From assembly GCA_016928395.1 (NCBI GenBank), contig JAFGKV010000121.1, positions 1-23,168 of the forward strand: 23,168 nt of DNA, given 5' to 3'. The DNA comes from Candidatus Fermentibacterota bacterium (lineage in GTDB: Bacteria; JAFGKV01). The notes below the pieces were generated by a model. It was not told where the DNA came from, searched no databases, and saw nothing but the letters and a program-made list of their open reading frames with translations. The translations under genes and the position numbers were made by a program. Positions 2,045-17,444 of this stretch are shown here, piece by piece. The number at the start of each line of letters is the position of its first letter. Position 1 is the first letter of the stretch.

Positions 2045-2064
2045 CAGCGGAAGAGAGGTCATCC

Positions 2065-2418
2065 GTGCGTCTGACCGAGATCATGGCTCTGCTGAATGCC
2101 GATCCGCTCGTCCTCGACGATGGCATGGACCGGGAGATCACCAGTGTGCACGCGTCGGATCTCATCAGCGAGGTCTTGGCATCGTGTTCCAGGGGCGCAC
2201 TCTGGCTCACCGGCTTGCTGGACCCGCAGATCGTCAATACCGCCGAACTGTTCGACCTGGCCGGCGTGGTGTTCGTGGGCAATAGGAAGCCCTCCGGCGG
2301 GATCATCGCTTTGGCCCGCGAGGAGGGCATCCCGATTCTGGCCACCAAGCTGACGATGTTCGAGACCTGCGGAGTCCTCTATGGGAAGGGGCTTCTTCCC
2401 GGAACGCGGGGGAGATGA
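2065..2418 (+). CDS. DRTGG-domain protein (first copy)
   Basis: This 117-residue protein resembles the small DRTGG-domain proteins found beside [FeFe] hydrogenase and serine-kinase-type genes. Features are the N-terminal LTEIMALLNADPL, a central ASDLISEVLASCSRGALWLTG segment, VVFVGNRKPS, and the C-terminal EEGIPILATKLTMFETCGVLY. The domain is thought to be regulatory or ligand-binding; no biochemical role is settled. It starts at GTG 2065 with AAGAGAGG 6 bases upstream, and its stop abuts the next start codon, so translation is probably coupled. A paralogue lies at 4207-4551 on the other side of the hydrogenase-like gene; the pair could form a heterodimer or sense two states. That last point is inference. 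Confidence 0.85.
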   Translation: MRLTEIMALLNADPLVLDDGMDREITSVHASDLISEVLASCSRGALWLTGLLDPQIVNTAELFDLAGVVFVGNRKPSGGIIALAREEGIPILATKLTMFETCGVLYGKGLLPGTRGR

Positions 2419-2883
2419 TTGGCCGCTTCGACTCATGGTCCGGTGCTGTTTCGTCGCTCTTTCAAGGTTGTGGGATCGGATTTTCTAAACGCCGGTTCGG
2501 TGTCAAAGGACATCAAGAAGGCGCTGAAGCAGCTCAATGTGGATGCAGAGGTGATCTGGCGTGCGTTGATCGTCTCCTATGAGGCGGAGATGAATGCCGT
2601 GCTCTATGCCCACGAATGTGACATTACCCTGGAGATTTCGCATAGTGGAATCCACCTGGTGTTCGATGACCGGGGTCCCGGCATCCCGGATATAGCGTTG
2701 GCCATGACCGAGGGATTCTCGACCGCCACCAGGGAGATGCGCGAACGGGGATTCGGCGCCGGCCTGGGGTTGCCCAATATCAAGAAGACATCGGATAGCC
2801 TCGAGGTGACATCCACCGTGGGCAAGGGCACGAGGCTCGACATCCACATACTGTTTCCCCAGGCCCAATCCAAGGCGGCGTGA
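2419..2883 (+). CDS. RsbW-like anti-sigma/serine kinase ATPase
   Basis: This 154-residue single-domain GHKL ATPase has an N box around EAEMNA (55-60), a G1 box DDRGPGIP (83-90) and a G2 box GFGAGLGLPNIKK (111-123). Size and motifs match RsbW/SpoIIAB-type ATP-binding proteins, which phosphorylate a STAS anti-anti-sigma factor or bind a sigma factor. Neither a STAS protein nor a sigma factor is encoded nearby, so the partner is unknown; homologues often accompany sensory [FeFe]-hydrogenase genes. The start is TTG 2419, directly after the stop of the DRTGG gene, with GGGGGAG just upstream. No in-frame ATG lies before the conserved fold begins. Confidence 0.88.
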   Translation: MAASTHGPVLFRRSFKVVGSDFLNAGSVSKDIKKALKQLNVDAEVIWRALIVSYEAEMNAVLYAHECDITLEISHSGIHLVFDDRGPGIPDIALAMTEGFSTATREMRERGFGAGLGLPNIKKTSDSLEVTSTVGKGTRLDIHILFPQAQSKAA

Positions 2884-2900
2884 CCATGATCGCAGCGATG

Positions 2901-2915
2901 CGAGGCTTTGCCTCG
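2901..2915 (+). other. Stem-loop just upstream of the hydrogenase-like gene
   Basis: A perfect 6-bp inverted repeat CGAGGC-TTT-GCCTCG sits 7 bases before the AGGAGG ribosome site (2923-2928) of the next gene. It lies inside a possible 11-codon open frame (2886-2921, ATG...TAG). It could modulate translation or mark an mRNA processing site; it could also be a degraded intergenic repeat. Confidence 0.45.
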
Positions 2916-2933
2916 GTGTAGCAGGAGGCGGAA

Positions 2934-4232
2934 ATGCTGCTCCACGACCAAATGCACTCTATCATGGTGGACAAGGATCTCTGCACGGGATGCGTTCTCT
3001 GCACGTTGGCCTGCCCGGTGCAGGCCATCCGCGTCAGAGACGGCAAGGCCGACGTGGTGAAGAGCAATCAGTGCATCGACTGCGGCGAGTGCCTCCGCGT
3101 CTGCCCTCAGCAGGCGGTTCGTTCCATGACCACGCAACGGCAGGATTTGACCGGCTACAAGGCGCTGGCCGCCCTGCCGTCCCCGGTGCTCTATGCCCAG
3201 TTCGGAGAGGGGCATACCCCCAACGACATCTTGCTCGCGCTGAAGAGTGTCGGCTTTGATTATGTGTTTGATCTGGCGGTCAACTGCGAGATGGTCTTCG
3301 TCGCCATCGACGAGTATCTGCGGCGCAATCCCGCGCCGCGCCCCATGATCTCCAACTTCTGCCCGCCCATCGCACGGATGATCCTGAAGAGCTACCCGAA
3401 CCTCGTGTCACACATCCTGCCCATCGAAGTGCCCAGGGAGACGGCGGCCAAGGCCGCCCGGCGCCGGATCACCAGGGACCGGGGCATCCCTCCCGACCAG
3501 ATCGGAGTCTTCCATATCACGCCGTGCGCGGCCAAGATGGTCTCCATCATGAAACCGGTGGGGGTCGATAAGTCGGATCTCGATGGCGCCATCGCCATTC
3601 GCGATCTCTATGTGCCCATGATGAAAGCGCTGGAATCCGTCGAGGAGATAGAAGACGAATCGGTTCTGCAGCGATCCAGCGGCGTCGGCATCAGTTGGTC
3701 TATTGGCCGTGGAAGCGTTCGTGGGCTCCCCAACCGGCCCTCCCTTTCGGTGACCGGCGTCAAGGATGTCATCAGGATTCTTGATGATGTGGATGCGGGA
3801 AGGGTCAACGGGATCGACTACCTTGAACTGTCCATCTGCCCCGGCGGCTGCGTCGGCGGCCCCTTGGTCGTCGAGAACAAGCATGTTGCCACCAGCCGGA
3901 TCGAGGACCTCATCACGCAGTACGGCGTTCGGAGCAGAATCGATGCCCGAAAGGTTTTGCGAACCTACGAGCAGACCTACCTCTTGAGCAGCGCTCGGTT
4001 CCGGGCCGAGGAGCCGCCGCCGCTGGATACCGATCTCGACCGTGCCCTGGAGAAGATGAACCGCATCGAGGAACTGGTGGGCATTCTCCCCGGCAAGCAG
4101 TGCGGGGCCTGCGGCGCGCCCTCGTGCCGGGACTTGGCCGAGGATATCGTCCGGGGCAATGCGTCGCTTTCTGACTGCGTGTTCATCCGTGTGAAGGAGC
4201 TGGAAGATGCGTGTGCGCGATCTGGTGACTGA
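2934..4232 (+). CDS. Sensory-type [FeFe]-hydrogenase homologue (HydS/HsfB-like)
   Basis: This 432-residue protein has three parts. Residues 14-62 hold two [4Fe-4S] sites (C17, C20, C23, C27 and C47, C50, C53, C57). Residues 80-345 are an iron-hydrogenase large-subunit domain. Residues 376-420 hold a C-terminal [4Fe-4S] motif (C390, C393, C398, C415). The H-cluster loops are SNFCPP (ligand C143), TPCAAK (C198) and CPGGCVGG (C302, C306), so all four ligands are kept. In catalytic enzymes the first loop is TSCCP; the first cysteine, the proton relay, is Phe142 here. This matches putative sensory hydrogenases rather than high-turnover ones. It likely senses H2 or redox state and signals through the adjacent ATPases and DRTGG proteins (inference). 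AGGAGG lies 5 bases before the ATG. The maturation genes hydE, hydF and hydG are not in the window, so H-cluster occupancy is unproven. Confidence 0.92.
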   Translation: MLLHDQMHSIMVDKDLCTGCVLCTLACPVQAIRVRDGKADVVKSNQCIDCGECLRVCPQQAVRSMTTQRQDLTGYKALAALPSPVLYAQFGEGHTPNDILLALKSVGFDYVFDLAVNCEMVFVAIDEYLRRNPAPRPMISNFCPPIARMILKSYPNLVSHILPIEVPRETAAKAARRRITRDRGIPPDQIGVFHITPCAAKMVSIMKPVGVDKSDLDGAIAIRDLYVPMMKALESVEEIEDESVLQRSSGVGISWSIGRGSVRGLPNRPSLSVTGVKDVIRILDDVDAGRVNGIDYLELSICPGGCVGGPLVVENKHVATSRIEDLITQYGVRSRIDARKVLRTYEQTYLLSSARFRAEEPPPLDTDLDRALEKMNRIEELVGILPGKQCGACGAPSCRDLAEDIVRGNASLSDCVFIRVKELEDACARSGD

Positions 4233-4551
4233 ACTGGGGCTCGAGGTCATCCATGAGGGGGATCACATGGACGATCCGGTCGAGGGCGGCTATGTCGGCG
4301 ACCTTCTCAGCGATGTCATCGCCTCAGGCAGGCGCAATGACGTGTGGCTTACCATCCAATCCCATGAAAACATCATTGCTGTGGCATCACTCAAGGATCT
4401 GGCGGCCATCGTGTTGGCAAAAAGCACCACGCCCCATGACGAGACAATCCTGCATGCCCAACGTGAGGGCGTGACCCTGCTGCGGTCGAACCTGACCTCG
4501 TACCAGCTTGTTGCACGACTCGCTGCTCTGGGAGTCAGCGGTGATCGGTGA
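4207..4551 (+). CDS. DRTGG-domain protein (second copy)
   Basis: This 114-residue paralogue of the protein at 2065-2418 shares the same layout: an N-terminal LVTELGLEVIHEG, a GDLLSDVIASGRRNDVWLTI segment, a VASLKDLAAIVLA helix-strand pair, and the C-terminal EGVTLLRSNLTSYQL. Its ATG lies inside the end of the hydrogenase-like gene (26-base overlap), with GAAGGAG about 8-10 bases upstream, so the two are translationally coupled. Its function is unknown beyond being a likely regulatory partner. The stop codon overlaps the start of the PHP gene. Confidence 0.83.
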   Translation: MRVRDLVTELGLEVIHEGDHMDDPVEGGYVGDLLSDVIASGRRNDVWLTIQSHENIIAVASLKDLAAIVLAKSTTPHDETILHAQREGVTLLRSNLTSYQLVARLAALGVSGDR

Positions 4552-5300
4552 TGGTGCGGTGTTTCAAGGCGGATCTGCATACCCACACCTGCCTGTCACC
4601 ATGCAGCGACCTGGAGATGTCTCCCCAGGGGATCGTGCAGGCTGCGGTGGCTCGGGGATTGGACATCATCGGCATCAGCGACCACAACTCTGCTGCCAAT
4701 GCCCAGGCGGTGATCCGGGCCGCCCGCGAGGCGCCGCTCTTGGTCATACCGGGAATGGAAATCACCACGGCGGAAGAAGTCCATGTGCTGGCGCTGTTTC
4801 CTTCAGTCGAGACCGCTTTGCAGGTGCAGCGGACCATGTATGCCGGGCTCGGCACCTCCGACAGCGAGGGCTATATCCAAGAGCAGGTTTTGGCGAATGA
4901 AGACGATGAGGTGGAAGGCTTCTGTTCCCATCTCTTGGTGGGCGCCTCGCTGCTCTCCCTGCAGCGCATCGTGCGACTCGTGAAGGGCGAGGGAGGGCTG
5001 GCCATCGCTGCCCACGTTGACCGGCAGGCCTTCGGCATCATCGGTGTGCTGGGGTTCATTCCCTTGCAGCTTGAGTTTGACGCTCTGGAGGTCTCCCGGC
5101 ACGTACCCCTGCCCGTGGCAGCACAGACCTTTCCCATGTACTCTCACCATGCGTTTATCACCAGTTCCGACGCCCACTATCTCAAAGACGTGGGCGCGGT
5201 CTGCACGGGCTTGTTGCTGGAAGAGCCCACGGTGGAAGAGGTCTGGGCCGCGTTCCAGGGCCGGGCCGGCCGACGCATAGCGCCTGAGGGCTGCGGATGA
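4548..5300 (+). CDS. PHP-domain metal-dependent phosphoesterase
   Basis: This protein of 250 residues (249 if the ATG at 4551 is used rather than GTG 4548) belongs to the PHP family, which hydrolyses phosphate esters at a multinuclear metal site. Candidate ligands are H11 and H13 (DLHTHT), D45-H46 (SDHN), E71 (PGMEI), H79, H156 (AAHVDR), and D208 and H210 (SSDAH). The full PHP motif set is therefore present and the protein is probably active. Small PHP proteins of this kind accompany sensory [FeFe]-hydrogenase genes in anaerobes; the substrate there is not known. One attractive inference is hydrolysis of a signalling phosphoester or nucleotide. It overlaps the upstream DRTGG gene by GTGA. The stop is followed at once by an AGGGTTC repeat block that breaks the tight spacing of the cluster. 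Confidence 0.9.
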   Translation: MMVRCFKADLHTHTCLSPCSDLEMSPQGIVQAAVARGLDIIGISDHNSAANAQAVIRAAREAPLLVIPGMEITTAEEVHVLALFPSVETALQVQRTMYAGLGTSDSEGYIQEQVLANEDDEVEGFCSHLLVGASLLSLQRIVRLVKGEGGLAIAAHVDRQAFGIIGVLGFIPLQLEFDALEVSRHVPLPVAAQTFPMYSHHAFITSSDAHYLKDVGAVCTGLLLEEPTVEEVWAAFQGRAGRRIAPEGCG

Positions 5301-5301
5301 G

Positions 5302-5333
5302 AGGGTTCAGGGTTCAGGGTTCAGGGTTCAGGG
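5302..5333. repeat. AGGGTTC heptamer array inside the operon
   Basis: Four perfect AGGGTTC units (5302-5329) plus a partial one begin one base after the PHP stop codon. Degenerate copies in inverted orientation lie at 5538-5565, at the other end of the same 295-base non-coding gap (5301-5595), so the gap is bounded by inverted repeats. The interior contains CGATACCGATAG-type words like those elsewhere in the window and no gene I can support. The same heptamer recurs at 23017-23060. Confidence 0.85.
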
Positions 5334-5537
5334 GAGGGCTAGGGGGTCGGTATCGCTCTCGCAGTCGCTATCGAATCCACGGACCATCGTCGATACCGAT
5401 AGGGAAGACATTCGCGTTACCAGTCCCGAACCCCGCCCGCTGGTGGGGGACGGTCGACCCCCTACGGGCAGTGTGTCGGCGGGCCGAGCTTTCGACTCCC
5501 GCGGGATCTGGCGGCTCCCACGCCTTCAGAGGCAGTG

Positions 5538-5565
5538 CTGAACCCCGAACCCTGACCCCTGAAAC
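5538..5565. repeat. Inverted degenerate copies of the AGGGTTC heptamer
   Basis: On the minus strand this reads as three to four imperfect AGGGTTC/AGGGGTC units. It could pair with the array at 5302-5333 to form a long stem enclosing about 200 bases. It ends about 30 bases before the next ATG, whose upstream region has no good ribosome site. Confidence 0.7.
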
Positions 5566-5595
5566 TTGCGGCCCAAAGCCTGACGAAGCACGGCG

Positions 5596-6132
5596 ATGAA
5601 GGAGCTGGCATTGCACATCCTCGATATCGCAGAGAACTCATTGCGGGCGGGCGCCTCCAGAATCGATATCGAGATCGTGGAGGACCCGGCGGAAGACACG
5701 GTACGGGTCGCCATCACCGATGATGGCCGCGGCATGGATGAGGAGACGCTCAAGAAGGCCCTGGATCCTTTCTTCACGACCAAGGATGTACGCAAGGTGG
5801 GCATGGGGCTCTCTCTGCTGCGCCAGGCGGCCCGAAGGACCGGGGGGGACTTGCGTGTGCAGTCACGCCCCGGGGAAGGCACCGCGGTGACCGCCGAGTT
5901 CGTGCGCTCCCACATCGATCGCCAGCCCCTGGGCGATATGGCATCGACCATCACCGCGGTCTTGCTGCAAAACCCCGCGATAGAGCTGCGGTATCACCAC
6001 GCCATCGGCGCGGATGGGTTCACGTTCGATACGTCTCAGGTTCGATCCGTGCTCGATGGCGTGCCTCTGTCAGACCCTGAAGTGCTCCAGTTCATCGGAA
6101 ATCTGATACGAGAACGGCAACAACTCACCTGA
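5596..6132 (+). CDS. Histidine-kinase-like ATPase domain protein
   Basis: This 178-residue protein has a GHKL ATPase domain over about residues 1-103: N box HILDIAENSLRAGA (7-20), G1 box DDGRGMD (42-48), F box DPFFTTK (57-63) and G2 box VGMGLSLL (68-75). There is no dimerisation/His-phosphotransfer domain, no sensor domain and no transmembrane segment, so it is not a classical two-component kinase. Residues 104-178 form a small conserved-looking tail without a name I can give. Proteins of this form are typical partners of sensory [FeFe]-hydrogenase clusters. The ATG has no clear Shine-Dalgarno sequence (upstream GAAGCACGGCG), possibly because a repeat element inserted just upstream. It precedes the HndB-like gene by 31 bases. 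Confidence 0.88.
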   Translation: MKELALHILDIAENSLRAGASRIDIEIVEDPAEDTVRVAITDDGRGMDEETLKKALDPFFTTKDVRKVGMGLSLLRQAARRTGGDLRVQSRPGEGTAVTAEFVRSHIDRQPLGDMASTITAVLLQNPAIELRYHHAIGADGFTFDTSQVRSVLDGVPLSDPEVLQFIGNLIRERQQLT

Positions 6133-6163
6133 GCGGCGCTCACAGTTCTGGGAAGGTAGACTC

Positions 6164-6547
6164 ATGGCAAAGCTGACCATCGAAGAACTCCGACGCATTC
6201 GAGACGAGGCGAAACGATCGCGCACCTTGCGTGAGGGCGAAGGTAAGGCCCGGATCACGGTACACATGGGCACCTGCGGCATCGCCTCCGGGGCCCGAGA
6301 GGTGATGAACGCACTGCTGGGCGCCATTGACGAGCACGGCATCCAGGATGTGCTGGTGACCACGTCGGGCTGTGCCGGGCTCTGCAGTCATGAGCCCATG
6401 GCCACCGTGGAGTACCGTGACACCCCTCCGGTGAAATATGCCAAGCTCACCCCGGAAAGCATCGTGCGGGTTCTGCTGGAGCATGCTGATAAGGGGGCCA
6501 TCGTCCGTGAACACGCGCTGGCCATCGGCAGCGAGAAGATGAGCTAG
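6164..6547 (+). CDS. HndB-like thioredoxin-fold [2Fe-2S] protein
   Basis: This 127-residue protein has an N-terminal helical stretch (TIEELRRIRDEAKR) followed by a thioredoxin-like ferredoxin domain. It contains HMGTCGIASGA (35-44) and TTSGCAGLCSHEP (66-78). Cysteines 38, 70 and 74 are present; the fourth [2Fe-2S] ligand of typical members, four residues after C38, is glycine. As I recall the HndB subfamily this is usual, so cluster binding here is uncertain. In NAD(P)-linked hydrogenases HndB sits between HndA and HndC, and the same order (before the HydB/HndC-like gene) is kept here. GGAAGG lies 8 bases before the ATG. It probably belongs to the same complex or assists electron transfer; the precise role is not established. 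Confidence 0.88.
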   Translation: MAKLTIEELRRIRDEAKRSRTLREGEGKARITVHMGTCGIASGAREVMNALLGAIDEHGIQDVLVTTSGCAGLCSHEPMATVEYRDTPPVKYAKLTPESIVRVLLEHADKGAIVREHALAIGSEKMS

Positions 6548-6610
6548 CCATGAGCGCAGCACAGTATACCCACATTGCCTCCACCGCCAGGAGCCGCCGA
6601 GGGGGACTGC

Positions 6611-8404
6611 ATGGATAGGTTTCGCACCCACTGTCTGGTTTGCACGGGGACCGGTTGTGTCTCCAACGGCGCCTTTGAGGTCAAGCGCGCGCTGGAAGAG
6701 GAACTGAAACGCCGAGGCCTGGAGCATGAGGTGCAGGTGGTAGGCACTGGCTGCAACGGGTTCTGCGAGCGGGGTCCCGTCATGCTGGTCCAGCCCGAAG
6801 GCGTGTTCTACCAGCAGCTTCGAGTGGAGGATGTTCCCAATTTGGTGGAGGAGCACTTCCTCAAGGGGCGGCCGGTCAATGACCTGATGTATGCCCCCAC
6901 CAAGAAAGACGAAACCGTGCCGCTGATGCGCGACATCGGTTTCTTCAAGGACCAGGTGCTGGTCGCCCTGCGCAACCGGGGCCGTATCGATCCCGAGGTC
7001 ATCGAGGATTATGTCGGGCATGATGGGTACGCCGCTCTGGAGAAGGTGCTGACGGAGATGACTCCTGAGGATGTGCTGGGCGAAATGAAGAAGTCGGGGC
7101 TTCGCGGCCGGGGGGGCGCGGGGTTTCCCACAGGCCTGAAATGGGAGTTTTGCCGGCGGGCCACCGGGCACCCCAAGTACATAATCTGCAACGGTGACGA
7201 AGGTGACCCGGGGGCCTTCATGGATCGTTCGATCCTTGAGGCTGATCCTCACTCCGTGCTGGAAGGCATGGCCATCGGGGCCTACGCCATAGGGGCGGAG
7301 CACGGAATCCTCTATGTCCGTGACGAATACCCCCTGGCTATCAAGCGGGTTGAGATCGCCATTGGGCAAGCTCGCAACCTGGGGCTTCTGGGTTCGGATA
7401 TCCTGGGCACGGGATTCAGCTTCGACGCCCGGGTTGTCCGCGGCGGCGGCGCGTTTGTGTGCGGCGAGGAAACCGCGCTCATGGCCTCCATCGAGGGGAG
7501 AGAAGGCCGGCCGCGATTCCGGCCGCCGTTCCCCGCGGAGAAGGGAGTCTGGGGAAAACCCACCAACATCAACAATGTGGAGACCTGGGCCAATGTAGCG
7601 CCCATCATCTCCCGGGGCGCCGAGTGGTTTGCCTCGATGGGCACCGAGACCAGCAAGGGGACCAAGATCTTCTCGCTGGTGGGCACGGTGAACAACTCAG
7701 GCCTCGTCGAAGTTCCCATGGGAATCACAATACGCAAGATCGTGTTCGACATCGGCGGCGGCATCCCGGGAGGCAGGGCCTTCAAGGCCGTGCAGATCGG
7801 CGGCCCCTCGGGCGGCTGTATTCCTGCCGAGCTGCAGGACACCATCATCGACTACGAATCGCTGGCGCGTACCGGGGCCATCATGGGTTCCGGCGGGCTG
7901 GTGGTGATGGATGAGCGGACCTGTATGGTCGACGTGGCACGCTACTTCCTGGAGTTCACCCAGAGCGAATCATGCGGGAAATGCACGTTCTGCCGGATCG
8001 GCACCAAGAGGATGATGGAAGTACTCACCAGGATATGCGAGGGCAAGGGAGAGCCCAGCGACATTGCGCTGCTGGAAGACCTGGCGGTCAGGATTCGCGA
8101 CTCCAGCCTCTGCGCGCTGGGCCAGACCGCGCCCAATCCGGTCTTGACCACGCTCAAGTATTTCCGGCACGAGTATGACGCCCACATACAGGAGAAGCGA
8201 TGCCCGTCCCATGTGTGTGCCGCGCTGCTCGTGTACGGAATCGATCCGGACAAGTGCACCGGGTGCACCCTGTGCGCACGGGTCTGCCCCGTGAATGCCA
8301 TCACGGGTGAACGAAAACAGGTGCACACCATCAATCAGGCACTCTGCATCAAGTGCGGGCAGTGCTATACCGCCTGCCGTTTCGATGCAATCACCAGGGA
8401 GTAG
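6611..8404 (+). CDS. NuoF/HydB/HndC-like FMN and Fe-S NAD(P)H subunit
   Basis: This 597-residue protein has the HydB/HndC layout. Residues 5-85 are a thioredoxin-like [2Fe-2S] domain (C11, C16, C48, C52). Residues 110-445 are the NuoF FMN/NAD(H) domain, with GLRGRGGAGFPTGLKW (163-178), CNGDEGDPGAF (193-203) and FVCGEETAL (282-290). The NuoF [4Fe-4S] site is C455, C458, C461 and C501. Two ferredoxin-like [4Fe-4S] sites follow (C549, C552, C555, C559 and C579, C582, C585, C589). The C-terminal ferredoxin extension separates bifurcating HydB-type proteins from respiratory NuoF, so ferredoxin-linked NAD(P)H chemistry is likely. ATG 6611 is preferred over TTG 6575 because GAGGGGG precedes it and homology begins at MDRFRTHCLVC. 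A 22-codon frame at 6550-6618 overlaps this start and is probably spurious. The large fusion gene follows after 22 bases. Confidence 0.95.
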   Translation: MDRFRTHCLVCTGTGCVSNGAFEVKRALEEELKRRGLEHEVQVVGTGCNGFCERGPVMLVQPEGVFYQQLRVEDVPNLVEEHFLKGRPVNDLMYAPTKKDETVPLMRDIGFFKDQVLVALRNRGRIDPEVIEDYVGHDGYAALEKVLTEMTPEDVLGEMKKSGLRGRGGAGFPTGLKWEFCRRATGHPKYIICNGDEGDPGAFMDRSILEADPHSVLEGMAIGAYAIGAEHGILYVRDEYPLAIKRVEIAIGQARNLGLLGSDILGTGFSFDARVVRGGGAFVCGEETALMASIEGREGRPRFRPPFPAEKGVWGKPTNINNVETWANVAPIISRGAEWFASMGTETSKGTKIFSLVGTVNNSGLVEVPMGITIRKIVFDIGGGIPGGRAFKAVQIGGPSGGCIPAELQDTIIDYESLARTGAIMGSGGLVVMDERTCMVDVARYFLEFTQSESCGKCTFCRIGTKRMMEVLTRICEGKGEPSDIALLEDLAVRIRDSSLCALGQTAPNPVLTTLKYFRHEYDAHIQEKRCPSHVCAALLVYGIDPDKCTGCTLCARVCPVNAITGERKQVHTINQALCIKCGQCYTACRFDAITRE

Positions 8405-8426
8405 GGCGGTGAGTGGAGAGAAAACC

Positions 8427-11400
8427 ATGACGAAGGTGACGGTCTCGATCGACGGCGCTGCGGTGGAAGCCTTTTCCCATGAGACCATTCTGGAGGCGGC
8501 CCGCCGCAGCGGCAGCGCCGATATCCCGACGCTCTGCCACAGCCCGCTGCTTCCGCCTTACGGCTCGTGTTTCGTGTGCGTGGTGGAGGTCGAAGGCGCC
8601 CGAACCCTCCAGCCGGCCTGTGCAACCCGGGTTCGGGAGGGTATGGTCATCCACACCGCCACCGACCGGGTTCGTCAGACCCGCACAATGGCGCTGGATC
8701 TCTTGCTCTCCGCCCATTGGGCCGACTGCATCGGGCCCTGCCAGATGGCCTGCCCCGCCGGGGTCGATGCCCAGGGGTATCTGGCCCTGGCCAGAGAGGG
8801 GAAGTATGCCGAGGCCGTGGAACTCATCAAACGGGTGAACCCGTTGCCTATCGTGTGCGGCAGGGTGTGCGTGCGTGCCTGCGAGGTCGCCTGCGAGCGG
8901 CAGAAGGTGGACGAGCCTGTCGGCATCAACTTCGTGAAGCGCTACGCCGCGGAACTGGAACGGGGCGAGGTCTACGTGCCGCGCCCCAAGCCGCCCATAG
9001 GGAAACGGGTGGCCATCGTCGGCAGCGGTCCCTCCGGCCTCACCTGCGCCTATTATCTGGCCTTGGAAGGCGTCGGGTGCACCATCTACGAGGCCTGGCC
9101 CAAGCCGGGAGGCATGCTGCGCTACGGTATTCCGGAGTATCGCCTTCCTAAACACCTGCTGGATCTGGAGATCGGCACCATCACGCGTCTGGGCGTCGAC
9201 ATCCAGACGGGCGTACGCCTGGGCAAGGATGTCACCTTGGACAGCCTGCGGCGAGACCACGACGCAGTCTTCGTGGCGGTCGGCGCGCCGGTGGGCCAGC
9301 GAATGCGGGTCGACGGCGAAGACACCACCCAAGGCGTGCTTTCGGGGCTTGACTTCCTGACCAGGATCCTGCTGGGCACTCCTCTGCAGGTGCATGGCCG
9401 GGTCGTCGTGGTCGGCGGCGGCAATACGGCCATCGATGCCGCCCGGACCGCCTTCCGCCTGGGGGCCGACGAGGTGATCATCCTGTACCGGCGTACCCGC
9501 AAGGAGATGCCGGCGGACGCGGTGGAAATCCACGCCGCGGAGGACGAGGGGGTTGAGCTGCAGCTTCTGGCGGCGCCTGTCGGCATCGTGTCCGAAGACG
9601 GCACGCTGAAGGGTATCAACGCCTTGCGCATGGAACTGGGCGAGCCGGACGCCAGCGGGCGGCGGCGCCCGGTCCCCATTCCGGGCAGCGAATACTTCAT
9701 CCCCTGTGACTTCGTGTTCGGCGCTATCGGCCAGGCCACGGATTTGTCGTGGGCCCGCGGGCCGGATGACAGCTCAGGCGAACTTGCCCGTACGAAGTGG
9801 GACACTGTGGTGGTGAATGATCGAACCTTGGAAACGAACATCCCGGGCGTGTTCTCCGGCGGCGATGTGGTGACGGGCCCCAGCGTGGCCATCGAAGCCA
9901 TCAGCCACGGCCGCCGCGCGGCAGCGGCCATGGTGGCATATTTGACGACCGGCACGGCCGAGGCCGCGCCCAAACCGTTCTACAGCACGAAAGAGCGCCT
10001 TGGTCCGGCCACACCCGAAGACCTGGCCTATGTGCCCAAGGCGCCGCGAAGCGTCATGCCGGAAGCCGACGCCCAGACCAGAAAGCGTTCCTGGGACGAA
10101 ACGGAGCTGGGACTGGAGCACGCCGCGGTCCGGCAGGAAACTGAACGCTGCCTGGTATGCGGCTGCCTCGATTTCGGCGACTGCGACCTCCAGCGCCTGG
10201 CCACCGAGTATGGCGCAGATCCCACGCGGCTCAAAGGCGAAGTGGTACGGCACCGGCCTGATGAGAGCCACCCGTTCATCACATTGGACAACAACAAGTG
10301 CATCCTCTGCGGCAAATGCGTCGCCATCTGCCGCGACCTGGTTGGTCCGGCGGCTCTGGGCTTCGTGAGCCGGGGCTTCGTGACCTCGGTGCGACCCACG
10401 CTGGAGGTGCCGCTGGCGGAATCTCCCTGCATCGGGTGTGGTAACTGCATCGACTCCTGTCCTACCGGGGCTCTGATGGACGGCGTGCGGTATCGCAAGC
10501 TCCGGGAGTGGAGGGTGGCGTATCACGTCACCACATGCGCCCATTGCGCCGTGGGGTGCCCCCTGCGATTCGCCACGGTGGCCCCGGGGCTGTTCTGGGT
10601 GCAGACACCCCAGGAGATTGGCGAGCCCTCGCGGTCGTTCCTCTGCCAGAACGGCCGGTACGGGCACCGCTACCTGAGTGCACCACAAAGGCTGAATGGG
10701 CCGCTCATCCGGGAGAACGGGGCTTTGCGCCCGGCTTCCTGGGATGAGGCCCTGGAACGTGCCGCCTCGATTCTCAGAGAATCATCCGCCAATGAAAACG
10801 CCACTGCGGTCATCGGCAGTGGGACCTTGACCTTGGAAGAGGCTTTCCTGCTCCAACGGATCGGGCGGCGCTCTCTGGCGACCGCCCATGTGGGGACAGG
10901 CGGCCAACTGACGGGCATCGCCAGCGACCGGGCCCTGGACGGGCTTGTCGGCTTCACGGGATCCACGGTACCCGTGGCGGCTCTGGATCAGGCCGACCTG
11001 GTATTCGTCGTGGGCACCGATCCCGCGTCGGTTGCGCCTGTAGTCGATTTCCGCCTGCATCAGGCATTACTCCGGGGCGCCACCGTGGTGCATATCGGCC
11101 CCTCCACTTTGGGTGCGGGCTCCCGGGCCGCGGTATGCGTGCCCACGGAGAACCCCGCTCCAGTGGCCCTCGCCCTGCTCCGAAGGCTGGCCATGGAAGG
11201 TGGGTTTGACCGCAGTTTCCTGCGCGAACGCTGCGCAGGCGTCGATCGGCTGGAATACCACCTGAAGAACCTCTCCGAAGAGGAGTTGCTCGAAGCCGGC
11301 GGGGTGGACTTGGAGACTCTGGCTTCGATTGCGAAGGTTGTGACCTCCGCGTCCGCTCACGTGGTGGGAATCGCGGGTGGCGGCGCAGGAGACGAGGCTT

Positions 11401-12134
11401 CGCTGAGGACTCTGGCCTTGCTGCTCTTGTGCATGGGCAAGATGGGTGTCGAGGGTTCGGGGCTTCTGGTACTCCGGGCGGATGCGAATGACCAGGGCAT
11501 GCCCGCCGTCGGGTTGCATCCTGAGTTTCTCCCCGGGCGCGTGGCCGCGCCGGACGGATCCGTGATTGCCATGCGTTCGGCCCTGGCCGGCTCCGTGAAG
11601 GCCGCCGTGGTCGTGGCTGAGGACCCACTGGCCACACCCGAGGGAACAGCGCTGCTGGCCGGCGTCGCCGATCTTGTGGTGCTGGATGCCTTTGCCACCG
11701 CCACTACCGCGGAGGCGAAGGTTGTGCTTCCGATCTCGGCTCCCGCCGAGACCACCGGCCGATTCTTCAACCTTGAGAGGCGGATCGCCCCTCTTGCCAA
11801 GTACGCAGAGCCACCAGCGGGCAAAGAGAGTTGGGAGGTCCTGGCGGCGCTGGAAGCGCGGCTTGCCGGATCAGCGCCTTTCTCCACGTTGGCAAAACTG
11901 TCACGCGCGGTAGACGGCATCCTAGGCGGCGCGGGCGGAGGCACGGGTGAGGTGCCCGAACCATTGTTCCTCCGCCGATTTCTTACGGCCAGCGGGCTTG
12001 CGGAACTGGGCAAGCCCGATGTGCTGGCTGGGGTGACGGTCAAGATTGAGCGGGGGCGTACGATGGGGTCCATCGGGCGCTGGGTGCATTCCTATCTAGT
12101 CGAAGCTCGTCCCAGCGCCGGCGTCTCGGAGTAG
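8427..12134 (+). CDS. NuoG-like protein with inserted GltD-like FAD/NAD(P) module
   Basis: This 1235-residue soluble multi-cofactor protein is built in order as follows. A NuoG-type [2Fe-2S] domain comes first (C37, C48, C51, C65). A GltD/Nfn-type module follows, with cysteine sets C101/C105/C109 and C144/C148/C152/C156, FAD motif VAIVGSGPSG (195-204), NAD(P) motif VVVVGGGNTA (326-335) and flavin-end motif FSGGDVVTGP (476-485). Next come CLVCGC...C586DLQRLA, and two [4Fe-4S] sites (C625-C635 and C668-C678). A molybdopterin-oxidoreductase-type [4Fe-4S] site (C704, C707, C711, C740) leads into a short NuoG-like domain to the end. No Cys or Sec occupies the molybdenum-ligand region and the dinucleotide-binding tail is absent, so formate dehydrogenase activity is unlikely. 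ATG 8427 has GGAGAG 6 bases upstream. It replaces the hydrogenase subunit expected at this operon position; I infer an electron-bifurcating or transhydrogenase role. Confidence 0.9.
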   Translation: MTKVTVSIDGAAVEAFSHETILEAARRSGSADIPTLCHSPLLPPYGSCFVCVVEVEGARTLQPACATRVREGMVIHTATDRVRQTRTMALDLLLSAHWADCIGPCQMACPAGVDAQGYLALAREGKYAEAVELIKRVNPLPIVCGRVCVRACEVACERQKVDEPVGINFVKRYAAELERGEVYVPRPKPPIGKRVAIVGSGPSGLTCAYYLALEGVGCTIYEAWPKPGGMLRYGIPEYRLPKHLLDLEIGTITRLGVDIQTGVRLGKDVTLDSLRRDHDAVFVAVGAPVGQRMRVDGEDTTQGVLSGLDFLTRILLGTPLQVHGRVVVVGGGNTAIDAARTAFRLGADEVIILYRRTRKEMPADAVEIHAAEDEGVELQLLAAPVGIVSEDGTLKGINALRMELGEPDASGRRRPVPIPGSEYFIPCDFVFGAIGQATDLSWARGPDDSSGELARTKWDTVVVNDRTLETNIPGVFSGGDVVTGPSVAIEAISHGRRAAAAMVAYLTTGTAEAAPKPFYSTKERLGPATPEDLAYVPKAPRSVMPEADAQTRKRSWDETELGLEHAAVRQETERCLVCGCLDFGDCDLQRLATEYGADPTRLKGEVVRHRPDESHPFITLDNNKCILCGKCVAICRDLVGPAALGFVSRGFVTSVRPTLEVPLAESPCIGCGNCIDSCPTGALMDGVRYRKLREWRVAYHVTTCAHCAVGCPLRFATVAPGLFWVQTPQEIGEPSRSFLCQNGRYGHRYLSAPQRLNGPLIRENGALRPASWDEALERAASILRESSANENATAVIGSGTLTLEEAFLLQRIGRRSLATAHVGTGGQLTGIASDRALDGLVGFTGSTVPVAALDQADLVFVVGTDPASVAPVVDFRLHQALLRGATVVHIGPSTLGAGSRAAVCVPTENPAPVALALLRRLAMEGGFDRSFLRERCAGVDRLEYHLKNLSEEELLEAGGVDLETLASIAKVVTSASAHVVGIAGGGAGDEASLRTLALLLLCMGKMGVEGSGLLVLRADANDQGMPAVGLHPEFLPGRVAAPDGSVIAMRSALAGSVKAAVVVAEDPLATPEGTALLAGVADLVVLDAFATATTAEAKVVLPISAPAETTGRFFNLERRIAPLAKYAEPPAGKESWEVLAALEARLAGSAPFSTLAKLSRAVDGILGGAGGGTGEVPEPLFLRRFLTASGLAELGKPDVLAGVTVKIERGRTMGSIGRWVHSYLVEARPSAGVSE

Positions 12135-12172
12135 AACGCAGCGGACGGACTCCAGGCGAATCGTTGGGTGGG

Positions 12173-12212
12173 GGGCCTTCAGGCCCGACGGGCTCCCGGA
12201 CACGGCCGGGAG
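12173..12212 (+). terminator. Tandem stem-loops after the redox cluster
   Basis: Two perfect inverted repeats lie 39-78 bases beyond the stop: GGGCC-TTCA-GGCCC (12173-12186) and CTCCCGG-ACACGG-CCGGGAG (12193-12212). There is no T-run after either, so these are not textbook intrinsic terminators. They may protect the 3' end or act with Rho. Confidence 0.4.
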
Positions 12213-12284
12213 ACGGGCATGAGCAGAGAGTTGCGCAGGGTAGGGGAGGAGCCTGGTCCACTCCCGACTCTCATTGCCCCGCGC

Positions 12285-12312
12285 TTGACAGTGAGAGGTA
12301 ACGCGCTATCGT
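12285..12312 (+). promoter_or_regulatory. Sigma70-like promoter for the folB-lytR_C operon
   Basis: A perfect -35 box TTGACA (12285-12290) is followed after 16 bases by TATCGT (12307-12312), four of six matches to the -10 consensus. The predicted transcription start is near 12319, about 65 bases before folB, in a gap that otherwise holds no gene. Confidence 0.65.
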
Positions 12313-12329
12313 GATCAGTCTTACTGATC
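12313..12329. promoter_or_regulatory. Palindrome at the predicted transcription start (candidate operator)
   Basis: The perfect inverted repeat GATCAGT-CTT-ACTGATC begins directly after the -10 box and covers the expected +1. Position and symmetry suit a dimeric repressor site. As RNA it would be a 7-bp hairpin with a 3-base loop at the very 5' end of the transcript, so an mRNA-stability role is the alternative. No regulator gene is adjacent. Confidence 0.5.
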
Positions 12330-12386
12330 GAGGACTTGTGGGGCAGTGAGGCCCCATGCACCACTTCCTTACTACAGGCGATGAAC

Positions 12387-12755
12387 ATGGACAGAATCAC
12401 CTTGAAGAATATGATCTTCTATGGCTCACACGGTGTGTCACCTGCCGAGCGCGAACTGGGTCAACGATTCGAGATTGATCTCTGCATGTTCGCCGATCTT
12501 AGTCGTGGGGCAGCCAGCGACAAGCTTCACAACACCATCGACTACGGCAAAGCCTACGCGGTGGTGGAGCACATCGTCACCCATCGAGTCTTCAACCTCC
12601 TGGAAACGCTGGCTCATGTCATCGCCCAGGAGATCCTGGCGGGATTTCCCGTCGAGCAGGTTGATGTCGTGGTTCGCAAACCCCGGGTTCCGATTCGGGG
12701 GACCCTGGATCTCGTCGAGGTTGCGGTATCCCGCAGCCGGGCTGGTGCTCCTTGA
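12387..12755 (+). CDS. folB: Dihydroneopterin aldolase
   Basis: This 122-residue protein is of standard length for FolB, which converts 7,8-dihydroneopterin to 6-hydroxymethyl-7,8-dihydropterin plus glycolaldehyde in folate synthesis. It shows FYGSHGVSPAERELGQRF (11-28) with the substrate-site Glu, TIDYGKAY (50-57), the conserved LLETLA (71-76) and the active-site lysine in VRKPRVPI (96-103, K98). The start MDRITLKNM at 12387 is favoured over ATG 12381 because AGG lies 8 bases upstream and most homologues begin this way. It is the first gene of the operon, behind a TTGACA promoter, and overlaps folK by TTGA, fitting consecutive folate steps. Confidence 0.94.
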   Translation: MDRITLKNMIFYGSHGVSPAERELGQRFEIDLCMFADLSRGAASDKLHNTIDYGKAYAVVEHIVTHRVFNLLETLAHVIAQEILAGFPVEQVDVVVRKPRVPIRGTLDLVEVAVSRSRAGAP

Positions 12756-13255
12756 TTTCCAATCGACGTGCCTTCATTGGACTAGGGGGTAACGAAGGCG
12801 ACCGGCCCACGATCCTGCGCCATGCGATGCGGTCTCTGGATCGGCTCTCGCCCGGGCTTCGGTGTTCGCCAGTGTTTGAGAGCCACCCATTGGGCAGGCA
12901 ACGCCAGCCGAATTTCCTCAACGCCGTGGTTGAGATGTGGTGGAAAGGGTCGGCCTACAGCCTGCTTACGGCGCTGCAGGCCATCGAACGAAGGTTGGGG
13001 CGCCGCCGGATGGTCCGCTGGAGTTCTCGTCCCGTGGATCTTGACCTACTCCTGCTGGACGGCCATATCTGTTGTGATGGGAGCCTGACCATCCCGCATC
13101 CGTCCATTGCCAGGCGGCCCTTCGTGTTGAGGCCGCTGCTCTCCCTTGATTCACGGGTACGCTCACCGGTCACAGGCCGGCGCTATGCCCGCTATCTGTG
13201 CCTGGTTCCGTCGAGAGGCATGCGCCGTCTGGATACGAGCGGTTGGACATCATAG
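12752..13255 (+). CDS. folK: 6-hydroxymethyl-7,8-dihydropterin pyrophosphokinase
   Basis: This 167-residue protein transfers pyrophosphate from ATP to hydroxymethyl-dihydropterin, the step after FolB. It has the HPPK start AFIGLGGNEGD (7-17), VFESHPLG (41-48), NFLNAVVEM (54-62) and the signature RWSSRPVDLDLLLLDG (89-104) with metal-binding D96 and D98. It then has IPHPSIARRPFVLRPL (114-129). The start is TTG 12752, overlapping the folB stop; no ATG lies before the conserved motif. The arginine-rich C-terminus beyond the PHP motif is slightly longer than usual. Dihydropteroate synthase (folP) is not in the window. Confidence 0.95.
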   Translation: MISNRRAFIGLGGNEGDRPTILRHAMRSLDRLSPGLRCSPVFESHPLGRQRQPNFLNAVVEMWWKGSAYSLLTALQAIERRLGRRRMVRWSSRPVDLDLLLLDGHICCDGSLTIPHPSIARRPFVLRPLLSLDSRVRSPVTGRRYARYLCLVPSRGMRRLDTSGWTS

Positions 13256-13268
13256 CCGAGGGATACTA

Positions 13269-13925
13269 GTGGTTGCAGACAAACACTACATCGCGGTCGA
13301 AGGAGTGATCGGCGTGGGCAAGACCTGCCTCGTTCGTCGCCTTGCCACGCGTCTCGACGCCCGGGTAATCCTCGAGCAGGTCGAGGAGAATCCCTTTCTT
13401 CCATTCTTCTATCGAGACCCTGAGCGGTACGCCTTCCAAGTGCAAGTGTTCTTCCTTCTGAGCCGATTCAAGCAGCAGCAGCAAATCGGTCAGGCCGATA
13501 TGTTCATGGACACTGTGGTGAGTGACTACATGTTTGCCAAGGACAAGATCTTCGCCAGGTTGAATCTCGACGATCAGGAGCTTGTCCTCTACGAGCGAAT
13601 CGCCGAGGTGCTGGAGAAATCTGCGGCACAGCCCGATCTGGTCGTCTATCTCCAAGCGAGAACGGATGTCATCATGCAGCGCATCAAGGAGCGGGGTCGC
13701 TCCTTTGAGAAGCGAATCAGCCGGGACTATATCGAGGCTCTGAACGAGGCATACAATCGGTTTTTCTTCACCTACACCATCTCTCCGGTGCTGGTGGTGG
13801 ACACCAACCATGTTGACTTCCGCTCCGATGATGAGGAGCTTGAGAGGCTCGTAGACAAGATGGCGCTGGCCCAGGCGGGCACGCAGATCTGGATACCGGG
13901 TACCGAATCGGAGGATGGGTTGTGA
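13269..13925 (+). CDS. Deoxynucleoside kinase (dGK/dAK family)
   Basis: This 218-residue protein phosphorylates deoxynucleosides for salvage. It has P-loop GVIGVGKT (12-19), substrate-site EENPFLPFFYRDPERYAFQ (39-57), TVVSDYMFAKDKIFA (82-96) in place of the usual SDY segment, and arginine-rich lid RIKERGRSFEKRI (138-150) followed by DYIEALNEAYNRFF. Length and motifs match bacterial deoxyguanosine/deoxyadenosine kinases; which base is preferred cannot be read from sequence. The start is GTG 13269 with GAGGG 6 bases upstream, 13 bases after folK. It overlaps panB by GTGA. A folK-dnk-panB order recurs in several deep bacterial lineages, as far as I recall, and need not imply a shared pathway. 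Confidence 0.93.
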   Translation: MVADKHYIAVEGVIGVGKTCLVRRLATRLDARVILEQVEENPFLPFFYRDPERYAFQVQVFFLLSRFKQQQQIGQADMFMDTVVSDYMFAKDKIFARLNLDDQELVLYERIAEVLEKSAAQPDLVVYLQARTDVIMQRIKERGRSFEKRISRDYIEALNEAYNRFFFTYTISPVLVVDTNHVDFRSDDEELERLVDKMALAQAGTQIWIPGTESEDGL

Positions 13926-14725
13926 GCGAACGGGTCACGCCGGCGCTTCTTGGCAAATGGAAGAGCGAGGGCCACCGGATCACGGCCTTGACCGCATACG
14001 ATTACCCTCTTGCGTGTGTCCTTGACAGCGCGGGAATCGATGTGGTTCTGGTGGGCGATTCCGTGGGCACGGCGGTGCTCGGGCTTCCCGATACGGTCGG
14101 GGTCACCATGGACGCCATGATCCATCACAGCCGTGCCGTGGCCCGGGGGGTGACTCGTGCGCTGCTGGTCGGCGATATGCCGTTTCTCTCGTACCATCTT
14201 TCGGCGAGTCAGGCACTGGAGAATGCCGCACGGTTTCTCCAGGAAGGAGGGTGCCAGGCAGTGAAGCTGGAGGGCTTTTACCCCCAGTTGGTAGAGACCT
14301 TGGTTGATGTCGGGATTCCTGTCATGGGGCACCTTGGTCTCCTACCGCAGCGGGTACGGCTCACCGGTTCGTACCGAGTTGCCGGCCGAAGCGCGGATGA
14401 GAGGACGACGTTGTTTGAACAGGCTCAGGCCCTGGAACGAGCCGGGTGCTTCGCCATGGTGCTTGAATGTGTGATACCCGAGCCGGCGGGAGAGATCACC
14501 CGGGCTCTGGCGATTCCGACCATCGGGATCGGTTCCGGCCCGCACTGCGACGGGCAGATTCTCGTCACCCACGACATGCTTGGCCTTAACCGTGGTCGCG
14601 TACCGCGGTTCGTGCGCCGTTATGCCGATTTGGATGAGACGATCCGGCGCGCCGTTGGGGCCTATGCTGATGATGTGCGGGAGGGGCGATTCCCCGTCTC
14701 GCACGAAACCTACTCCGAGGAGTGA
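13922..14725 (+). CDS. panB: 3-methyl-2-oxobutanoate hydroxymethyltransferase
   Basis: This 267-residue protein catalyses the first committed step of pantothenate synthesis: hydroxymethyl transfer from methylene-tetrahydrofolate to 2-oxoisovalerate. Metal- and substrate-site motifs are intact: TALTAYDYP (21-29), LVGDSVG (43-49, D46), VGDMPFLSY (83-91, D85), AVKLEG (113-118), VMGHLGLLPQ (134-143), the catalytic LECVIPE (181-187, E182) and IGIGSGPHCDGQILV (201-215). Length is normal. The start is GTG 13922, overlapping the kinase stop. The folate cofactor requirement gives a plausible reason for co-transcription with folB and folK (inference). panC follows after 3 bases. Confidence 0.97.
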   Translation: MSERVTPALLGKWKSEGHRITALTAYDYPLACVLDSAGIDVVLVGDSVGTAVLGLPDTVGVTMDAMIHHSRAVARGVTRALLVGDMPFLSYHLSASQALENAARFLQEGGCQAVKLEGFYPQLVETLVDVGIPVMGHLGLLPQRVRLTGSYRVAGRSADERTTLFEQAQALERAGCFAMVLECVIPEPAGEITRALAIPTIGIGSGPHCDGQILVTHDMLGLNRGRVPRFVRRYADLDETIRRAVGAYADDVREGRFPVSHETYSEE

Positions 14726-14728
14726 TAG

Positions 14729-15592
14729 ATGGACGTACTCCGGACCATTAGCGAGCTGCGCGCGTGGCGGCGCGCGGCACGGGGAAAGGTCGCTTTGGTA
14801 CCTACCATGGGCTACTTCCATGAAGGACATCTCTGTCTCATGCGCACGGCGCGGCGCGCCGCGGACGTCGTGCTGGTCTCCTCCTTTGTCAACCCCATTC
14901 AGTTCGGCCCCACCGAGGATCTGGCCCGGTATCCCCGGGATCTGGAGCGCGACAGGGCCCTGGCCTCGGACGCGGGGGTTGATGCCCTGTTCGTACCTTC
15001 CGCCGAGGAGATGTATGGGCAGTCACACGAGACGTTCGTGTATTGGCCCACCATGGGAAACCTCCTGTGCGGTCGTACTCGACCGGATCATTTCCGCGGT
15101 GTCGGCACCGTGGTGGCCAAACTCTTCAATCTTGCCTTCCCCCATGTGGCGACCTTTGGCCGCAAGGACGGCCAGCAGGTTCTGCTTCTGGAGCGAATGG
15201 TGCGCGAGCTGAACTTTGACGTCGAAATAGTGGTGTGTCCCACGGTGCGCGAACCCGACGGGCTTGCTCTCAGCTCTCGCAATGCCCTCCTCAGCGCTGC
15301 CGACCGCATTCAGGCCTTGGGCATCTACGCGGGTTTGGACGCAGCAAGAGCTGCGATTCTGGGCGGAGAACGCCGATCGGCTGCCATCCGCAATGAGATG
15401 GCGCAGCTCATGGCGAAGTCACCGGGTCTTGGGGTTGAGTATTGCGAAGTGGTCTCCAGGGAGTCTTTGCGGGCCGTGGACATCATAGACCACTGCTCCA
15501 TGATCGCCGTTGCCGGTCGTGTCGGCACCACGCGTCTCCTTGACAACCTGTGGACCATGGGTGCGGACGGGGATATTCGCATTGAATTGTAA
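14729..15592 (+). CDS. panC: Pantothenate synthetase (pantoate--beta-alanine ligase)
   Basis: This 287-residue protein joins pantoate and beta-alanine with ATP. It belongs to the nucleotidyltransferase superfamily: PTMGYFHEGHL (25-35, HxGH at 31-34), FVNPIQFGP (53-61), GRTRPDHFRGVGTVVAKLF (115-133), FGRKDGQQ (143-150) and the KMSKS-equivalent DGLALSSRN (177-185). Two positions depart from the common consensus (ALHEGH is YFHEGH; GEKDYQQ is GRKDGQQ); neither removes a catalytic residue I know of. The start ATG 14729 lies just after the panB stop. The last 11 bases overlap the next gene. The beta-alanine source (panD) is not seen here. Confidence 0.96.
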   Translation: MDVLRTISELRAWRRAARGKVALVPTMGYFHEGHLCLMRTARRAADVVLVSSFVNPIQFGPTEDLARYPRDLERDRALASDAGVDALFVPSAEEMYGQSHETFVYWPTMGNLLCGRTRPDHFRGVGTVVAKLFNLAFPHVATFGRKDGQQVLLLERMVRELNFDVEIVVCPTVREPDGLALSSRNALLSAADRIQALGIYAGLDAARAAILGGERRSAAIRNEMAQLMAKSPGLGVEYCEVVSRESLRAVDIIDHCSMIAVAGRVGTTRLLDNLWTMGADGDIRIEL

Positions 15593-16334
15593 GGGCCCCG
15601 GTTTCGCCGCGGTGGTTCTGGCCGCCGGACGAGGCAAACGGATGCGATCCGACCTTCCGAAGGTCATGCACCCGCTACTGGGAAAACCCATGCTGGAGTA
15701 TGTGCTCATGGCCGCCCGCCTCGCGAGGGCCGCACCGGTGGTGGTTATCACTGGGGCCGCAACACCCGGAGTTGCCGAATGTGCCCGTGGCTTTGGCGCA
15801 GAGATCGCAGTACAGCTGGTTCCCCGCGGCACGGGTGACGCCGTGCGGTGGGCGCATCCCCATTTGAATGGGTTCCAGGGTGACATTGTCGTCCTCTGCG
15901 GTGACGCTCCGGTCGTAACCGGCGAGACAATCACCCGGCTGGTGGCCCTGCACCGAGGCGAACGGAATGCGGTGACCATTCTCACTGCCCAGGTGCCCAA
16001 TCCCCAGGGGTTTGGGCGCATCATCAGGGCCGAAGACGGCAGGGTGACGCGCATCGTCGAAGAGGCCGATGCCTCGGCACACGAGCGGGCTATCGGCGAG
16101 GTGAACAGCGGCGCCTACTGTTTCGCGCCGGACGCGCTCTTTCCCCAGCTTGACTTCTTGACCTCCGACAATAGCCAAGGTGAGATCTACCTGACCGATG
16201 TAGTGGGCGCTCTCTTTCGGGAGGGTCGCCGCGTGGGTGCACTTTCCATGGGCGTACCTGCGGCACCGCTGGGCATCAACACCGTCGAGGAACTGGAGGA
16301 GACGGAGCGCGTCCTGGCCGCCCGAAGAGGTTGA
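15582..16334 (+). CDS. GlmU-type UDP-GlcNAc pyrophosphorylase domain, no acetyltransferase
   Basis: This 250-residue protein matches only the N-terminal uridylyltransferase half of GlmU. It has AAVVLAAGRGKRMRSDLPKVMH (9-30), PRGTGDAV (81-88), VVLCGDAPVV (103-112, metal D108), GFGRIIR (143-149), VEEADAS (159-165), EVNSGAYCF (173-181) and QGEIYLTDVV (199-208). It ends where the left-handed beta-helix acetyltransferase domain of full GlmU (about 450 residues) would begin, and no such domain follows in any frame. It would make UDP-GlcNAc or a related NDP-sugar, with acetylation done elsewhere. TTG 15582 is the only sensible start; GGACGGGGA lies upstream and it overlaps panC by 11 bases. It could alternatively act on another hexose-1-phosphate. 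Confidence 0.88.
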   Translation: MNCKGPGFAAVVLAAGRGKRMRSDLPKVMHPLLGKPMLEYVLMAARLARAAPVVVITGAATPGVAECARGFGAEIAVQLVPRGTGDAVRWAHPHLNGFQGDIVVLCGDAPVVTGETITRLVALHRGERNAVTILTAQVPNPQGFGRIIRAEDGRVTRIVEEADASAHERAIGEVNSGAYCFAPDALFPQLDFLTSDNSQGEIYLTDVVGALFREGRRVGALSMGVPAAPLGINTVEELEETERVLAARRG

Positions 16335-16335
16335 G

Positions 16336-17309: not shown

Positions 17310-17444
17310 ACCGTCGCAGAGCCCTTTCAGCTCTCCCACAGAATCACTGAACCCGCCCAGCGCAACGCCGGGAGGGCAGAGCCGCCCTCGCCTACGGATG
17401 ACACGGCCCGAACACTGGCTACACGGCTCTCAACCCCGAAGACC

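Follow-up and report, generated by a model that had tools for sequence, protein, structure and literature searches.

The electron-bifurcating transhydrogenase StnABC has been purified and its structure solved by cryo-EM, and it couples the oxidation of NADPH to the reduction of NAD+ and ferredoxin, or works in reverse (PMC7483475, PMC10482914). In Sporomusa ovata, StnC was described as a fusion of GltD and NuoG with a catalytically inactive FdhF-like domain (PMC7483475, PMC10482914). Nfn-Bfu was named Type 1 Bfu, and bacterial (S. ovata) and archaeal (Thermococcus sibiricus) members were assayed (PMC9304861). In the present study, we analyzed a window of 23,168 nucleotides from a Candidatus Fermentibacterota genome (a 4.79-Mb draft, 94% complete), in which ten consecutive + strand genes span 1577-12134. 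The genes overlap or are separated by short gaps, except for about 295 bases between 5300 and 5596, the sole larger gap in the run. This operon very probably encodes an electron-bifurcating transhydrogenase of the Stn type (Nfn-Bfu, Type 1 Bfu). Domain scans gave the order NuoE-like, DRTGG, HATPase, [FeFe]-hydrogenase-like, DRTGG, PHP, HATPase, HndB-like, HydB/NuoF-like and a 1235-residue fusion. The first-pass annotation of this DNA had named the NuoE-like gene, the HndB-like gene, the HydB-like gene with its C-terminal double [4Fe-4S] and the fusion, and their coordinates and identities hold; it had left out six genes that lie at 2065-6132, after NuoE and before HndB, among them a member of the [FeFe]-hydrogenase family (2934-4232).

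The fusion (8427-12134) has Fer2_4, Fer4_20, Pyr_redox_2 (GltD-like), Fer4_Nqo3, Molybdop_Fe4S4 and Molybdopterin domains, laid out as Fer2, Fer4_20/GltD-like Pyr_redox_2, NuoG-type ferredoxin domains and a molybdopterin-oxidoreductase-like tail. In a phmmer search of solved structures, it matched 9bov_A (E = 3.8e-237, residues 3-1148) and 8oh5_C, the StnC of S. ovata (E = 7.9e-219, residues 1-1164). These matches are far beyond chance, and on this evidence the 1235-residue protein is StnC (BfuA), with its fold settled by the similarity to solved structures. Thus, the earlier statement that the fusion could not be matched to a characterized enzyme falls, as both chains match it over nearly its whole length, and the uncharacterized electron hub proposed there is ruled out by the solved StnC homologues. 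Domain scans and structure matches agree that the GltD-like FAD/NADPH domain is inserted in a NuoG-like scaffold. In an alignment to 8oh5_C, Lys170 corresponds to Lys171 of the window StnC; this residue, near cluster C7, is strictly conserved in StnC and is Glu in NfnB (PMC10482914). Arg239, the cysteines of all aligned FeS clusters and the YRRxxxEMPA NADPH-site region are also kept. The FdhF-like tail has Gly opposite the active-site Cys of FdhF (chain u130006, DHCARL); since the catalytic Cys/Sec position is Gly, this tail should be inactive, as in StnC. The window operon resembles the S. ovata system (StnABC; 8oh5/8oh9) in all three subunits, in the domain order of StnC, in Lys170/Arg239, in the FeS ligands and in the dead FdhF-like tail. 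Unlike the S. ovata protein, the window StnC has Ala in place of Cys114; homologues differ at this position, and in S. ovata a C114A variant retains about half of the activity (PMC10482914). The Nfn-Bfu of T. sibiricus shares the GltD-like insertion in BfuA and the NADPH/NAD+/ferredoxin coupling (here predicted), but its BfuA is shorter, lacks the A4 cluster ligands and has a partial FdhF-like tail (PMC9304861, PMC10482914). In a tree with HydA and FdhA as outgroups, positions of the window StnC as sister to, or inside, canonical StnC were not separated. The entry 9n5u, which bears the name NfnA in the PDB, presumably belongs to the Nfn-Bfu of T. sibiricus.

Two other enzyme types were considered and rejected. 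In an NfnAB transhydrogenase, a small NfnA is paired with a separate GltD-like NfnB, whose residue at the C7-type cluster is Glu, whereas here GltD is fused in NuoG and the residue is Lys. An [FeFe]-hydrogenase of the HydABC type was rejected as well: the domain scan gave no PF02906 match in 8427-12134, that is, no H-cluster domain at the BfuA/HydA position, and the only PF02906 protein found in the draft genome is the HydS-like protein described below. The domain scan also revealed, within the operon, no subunit of the group A H-cluster, formate or [NiFe] kind that would use the core.

The remaining subunits of the core are StnA/BfuC, a NuoE-like protein with one [2Fe-2S] (1577-2044; PF01257, E = 8.8e-50), and StnB/BfuB, a HydB-like protein (6575-8404) with Complex1_51K and NADH_4Fe-4S followed by two 4Fe-4S motifs. 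The latter aligned end to end with HydB-type chains (7t2r_B, E = 4.6e-264; 8oh5_B, E = 1.5e-226), from the N-terminal [2Fe-2S] through the FMN/NAD(H) site and NADH_4Fe-4S to the C-terminal 2x[4Fe-4S], and it keeps all of the N- and C-terminal cluster motifs of 7t2r_B. The proposal of a hydrogenase-type operon in which an Nfn/GltD-type module takes the place of HydA and is joined to a HydBC-type core agrees with both domains and gene order. In a tree of 45 HydB/StnB proteins, the three window-type proteins were sister to canonical StnB (95/94), and the clade next to these two contained Fdh-Bfu as well as some hydrogenase-operon cores. However, alternative placements were not rejected by the AU test (p = 0.24 and 0.10, the former with the window BfuB grouped with the Fdh/hydrogenase-operon cores), and with long-branch rows added the tree became a three-way split. 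The sequences thus give moderate support to the window BfuB as sister of canonical StnB. A BfuB borrowed from a hydrogenase is not supported, as the trees place it nearest StnB or in the three-way split. A second Bfu core was observed in the same genome (G000:C304:16000-35125; 7002-17510, minus strand), with HydC, HndB and a HydB of 59% identity. Its neighbours are a 429-aa Fer2/4Fe-4S/GCV_H fusion, in which we did not see the usual GcvH lipoyl-lysine motif on reading, a CCG (HdrB-like) protein, an HdrA/GltD-like protein of 911 aa and MvhD, and from this gene content the core is possibly an Hdr-Bfu hybrid.

The six genes between NuoE and HndB encode DRTGG, HATPase, HydS, DRTGG, PHP and HATPase proteins, in this order. 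The first DRTGG domain protein (2065-2418; PF07085, E = 3.1e-5, just under the cut-off) has equally placed homologues in the two related genomes and in clostridial HydS operons, and homologues of the second (4207-4551; PF07085, E = 1.7e-5) also occur in the relatives and in clostridial HydS operons. The first HATPase (2419-2883; PF02518, E = 1.1e-10; TIGR01925, E = 2.1e-11) is SpoIIAB-like, with no phospho-acceptor His domain found by the domain scan, and the second lies at 5596-6132 (PF02518, E = 1.5e-18). A PHP-family phosphoesterase-like protein is encoded at 4548-5300 (PF02811, E = 6.8e-9). Directly after the cassette follows the gene for an HndB-like thioredoxin-fold [2Fe-2S] protein (6164-6547; a weak PF01257 match and an NCBIfam match to 2Fe-2S ferredoxin), which is found in HydS-type hydrogenase operons and is missing from nearly all canonical stn clusters. 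Thus, unlike the compact three-gene stn clusters of S. ovata (PMC7483475) and Clostridia, the operon of the window includes a six-gene HydS cassette and HndB.

In the search set, the phylum is represented by three genomes, all drafts: that of the window, G001 of the same genus and G002 (98% complete). HydS and StnC were found in all three, with identities to the window proteins in the two relatives of 85% and 69-70% for HydS and 78% and 61-62% for StnC, and the locus scan gave an identical ten-gene order in the three genomes, so that StnC fills the HydA slot in each, with a cassette that elsewhere stands beside HydABC in Clostridia-type genomes. Directly 3' of stnC (12336-15592), ORF translations suggest a biosynthetic cluster of folB-like, folK-like, nucleoside kinase-like, panB and panC genes, which was not found 3' of stnC in the two relatives. 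The stn genes of S. ovata are also near folate genes (PMC7483475), and this shared proximity is possibly a coincidence. By eye, an ORF of 661 aa further downstream (17913-19898) has many VYGxxxxxSG..GVYG repeats and looks tail-fibre or adhesin-like.

The product of 2934-4232 (PF02906, E = 1.1e-27; PF04060, E = 9.2e-14) has two N-terminal [4Fe-4S] motifs, an H-domain with four Cys, a C-terminal Cx2Cx4Cx16C, no PAS domain and Thr at the position of CpI Met353. Features of the group D (M2e) putative sensory hydrogenases include Ser/Thr at this position (PMC8163306), and by motif alignment the protein is HydS-like, of group D. Its L1 motif, SNFCP (3351-3365), contains Cys143, a ligand of the H-cluster [4Fe-4S], preceded by Phe142 at the position of CpI Cys299. 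The three genomes of the phylum share this Phe, and every other aligned HydS has S, A, N or T at the position. By analogy with known [FeFe]-hydrogenase structures, Phe would hinder the diiron subsite. The four [4Fe-4S]H cysteines are conserved in the HydS of the three genomes and throughout the comparison set, so that a loss of these ligands in HydG-lacking genomes was rejected; in some HydS of such genomes Lys358 is replaced by Gln and the L3 GGC motif is altered, and the window HydS keeps the equivalent of CpI Lys358. A contig scan with the HydS alignment, for which poor peptide patterns had been chosen, gave four loci, two of them from this phylum.

We compared the cassette with 398 clostridial-type genomes (the phylum of G003), of which 158 have HydS (E <= 1e-60), 66 have StnC (E <= 1e-200) and 214 have HydG (E <= 1e-80). 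HydG accompanies HydS in 112 of the 158 HydS genomes and was not detected in 46. None of 20 canonical StnC loci, read with several kb of flank each, carries cassette genes, only StnA-StnB-StnC, and the idea that the HydS cassette is normal for Stn was rejected for the sampled phylum. Both HydS and StnC occur in 28 genomes; in the 25 with both places listed they were never adjacent by position (different contigs in 22, at least 186 kb apart on the same contig in three). At the loci from HydG-containing genomes, which were the best-scoring ones, HydA lies near HydS in 15 of 18 and selenocysteine FdhA in none. The usual order where HydA is present is cassette, HydC, HATPase, HndB, HydB and HydA. 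These clostridial operons (DRTGG-HATPase-HydS-DRTGG-PHP-HydC-HATPase-HndB-HydB-HydA) share the cassette genes and the HndB-HydB order with the window, but the window has StnC instead of HydA and NuoE at the front, and HydF and HydG were not found in its genome. Among 42 HydS loci from genomes without detected HydG, HydA was present at about nine, probably because these assemblies are incomplete, and one of them also has an FdhA. At nine others HydA is lacking, and the FdhA reading frame is interrupted once, by an in-frame TGA at the active-site position; the remaining loci are cut short or have different neighbours. As the locus samples were best-scoring (HydG-positive loci) and uncorrected for relatedness, these figures are counts and not tests. 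At L119, L140, L150-L153, L158, L161, L164 and L165, all from genomes with HydG undetected, the cassette has as neighbour an FdhA whose DHCARL-U-H site contains an in-frame TGA, and this FdhA is, from its sequence, that of a selenocysteine formate dehydrogenase Bfu. One of these (L161) is in a HydG-negative genome, G238, whose single 3.7-Mb contig is as long as the genome size given for it. This Fdh-Bfu resembles the window operon in having the same cassette beside a non-hydrogenase Bfu, with HydG not found in the genomes, and differs in formate as the third substrate and in the in-frame TGA (Sec) at the active site. In five other clostridial-type HydS operons (L110, L113, L114, L146 and L154), HydB occurs as a fusion with a GltD-like domain (993-1021 aa), and HydA is present at four of them; this architecture suggests NADP(H)-linked bifurcating hydrogenases.

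HydS, the two HATPases, the two DRTGG proteins and the PHP protein may form a regulatory cassette of the Stn operon. In the open-licence literature, we found no description of a DRTGG/PHP/HATPase cassette with Bfu operons. No DNA-binding protein or transcription factor is encoded in the cassette, which makes the complex itself, or else a remote partner, its probable target. The cassette may sense the redox state via HydS, and the SpoIIAB-like HATPase, DRTGG and PHP proteins may act on the complex or another target. A further reading, to which we give less than even odds, is that the cassette is a general regulator of Bfu enzymes, whether H2-, formate- or NADPH-linked, and that in genomes without HydEFG, HydS would be an all-[4Fe-4S] redox sensor at the level of ferredoxin, having lost the diiron subsite, and not an H2 sensor. 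HydG gave no match in the window genome or in G002, and HydF gave none above the cut-off in either, the lower HydF matches being in a range that other GTPases can give and that was also seen in control genomes. An alternative possibility, which we consider unlikely, is that HydS senses H2 in the ordinary way, by means of a full H-cluster, and that HydEFG are missing only through incomplete drafts. All three genomes of the phylum are indeed drafts, and a 7.6-kb contig of G001 (G001:C406:1-7595) carries HydG, an aspartase/fumarase-like gene, HydF, a Rex-like regulator, HydC and HydB, with a composition that fits its genome; the lineage therefore does not uniformly lack maturation, and G001 may hold a true [FeFe]-hydrogenase that the window genome lacks. 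Furthermore, at another place (C39) the window genome encodes the large subunit of a [NiFe]-hydrogenase, in which both CxxC ligand pairs are present, so that H2 metabolism is possible and H2 is a plausible signal. However, HydG, and any HydF above the cut-off, escaped detection in both of the more complete genomes, HydS without HydG recurs in the 46 genomes elsewhere, including the single-contig G238, and Phe at the position of CpI Cys299 also argues against a full H-cluster.

A bifunctional H2/NADPH bifurcating enzyme, with HydS as a catalytic subunit of the same complex, appears highly improbable. A separate subunit carries the H-cluster in the FdhFeFe-Bfu complex. HydS is encoded within the operon, none of its four [4Fe-4S]H cysteines is lost, the Lys358 equivalent is also retained, and both HydF and HydG are present in G001, from the same genus. 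Nevertheless, apart from the maturase results in the other two genomes and the Phe residue given above, the same HydS accompanies complete HydABC in Clostridia, which makes it an additional protein rather than the catalytic subunit of this core; characterized enzymes of groups C and D are slow and proposed to be sensory (PMC8163306). An [FeFe]-active subunit encoded nearby was the kind of finding that the first-pass annotation had set against its own proposal; a gene of this family is formally present at 2934-4232, but for these reasons it is not the catalytic partner of the core.

As for the reaction of the Stn-type enzyme, homologues suggest that NADPH would be oxidized by the FAD that the GltD-like domain of StnC binds. 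From there, the clusters of StnC would lead the electrons to the FMN/FeS core of StnB, which would split them to NAD+ and ferredoxin. In the reverse and likely biosynthetic direction, NADH and reduced ferredoxin would yield NADPH, and the tail of StnC would be structural. This coupling and its direction are predicted by analogy; the NADH/NADPH/ferredoxin coupling, anticipated in the first annotation, is the reaction of homologous Stn (PMC7483475, PMC10482914). As StnC homologues were solved and assayed, the predicted reaction is that of a characterized enzyme family. Read from the sequence are homology, cofactor ligands and operon conservation, with HydF and HydG not found in this assembly. 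It is hardly conceivable that StnC is a mere scaffold and the BfuBC core has an unseen partner, for example in a non-bifurcating NADPH:NAD+ transhydrogenase: non-bifurcating relatives of HydBC cores are known, but the B2-B5 clusters, by which the Bfu scheme tells the two kinds apart, are absent from them (PMC9304861), and the motifs of these clusters are present in the window BfuB, and the cluster chain from FAD/NADPH to BfuB is complete in the window StnC.

The operon could represent a stage between the hydrogenase-type Bfu operons and the compact stn clusters, although the tree does not settle the order. In one of two histories, it is an ancestral Stn that still bears a hydrogenase-type cassette; in the other, StnC was secondarily inserted into a hydrogenase-type operon. 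The Stn/Nfn-Bfu family is known, and its distribution is extended here to a further phylum; the HydS cassette around the Stn genes is new. The setting therefore matters more than the enzyme, as a putative sensory hydrogenase cassette is joined to a bifurcating enzyme for which H2 is not a substrate, two H-cluster maturases were not found in the host genome, and a like pattern occurs beside selenocysteine formate dehydrogenases elsewhere. This arrangement and the distribution of the cassette are the parts worth following: with the cassette beside such an enzyme and the two maturases undetected, what group D HydS proteins sense becomes directly testable.
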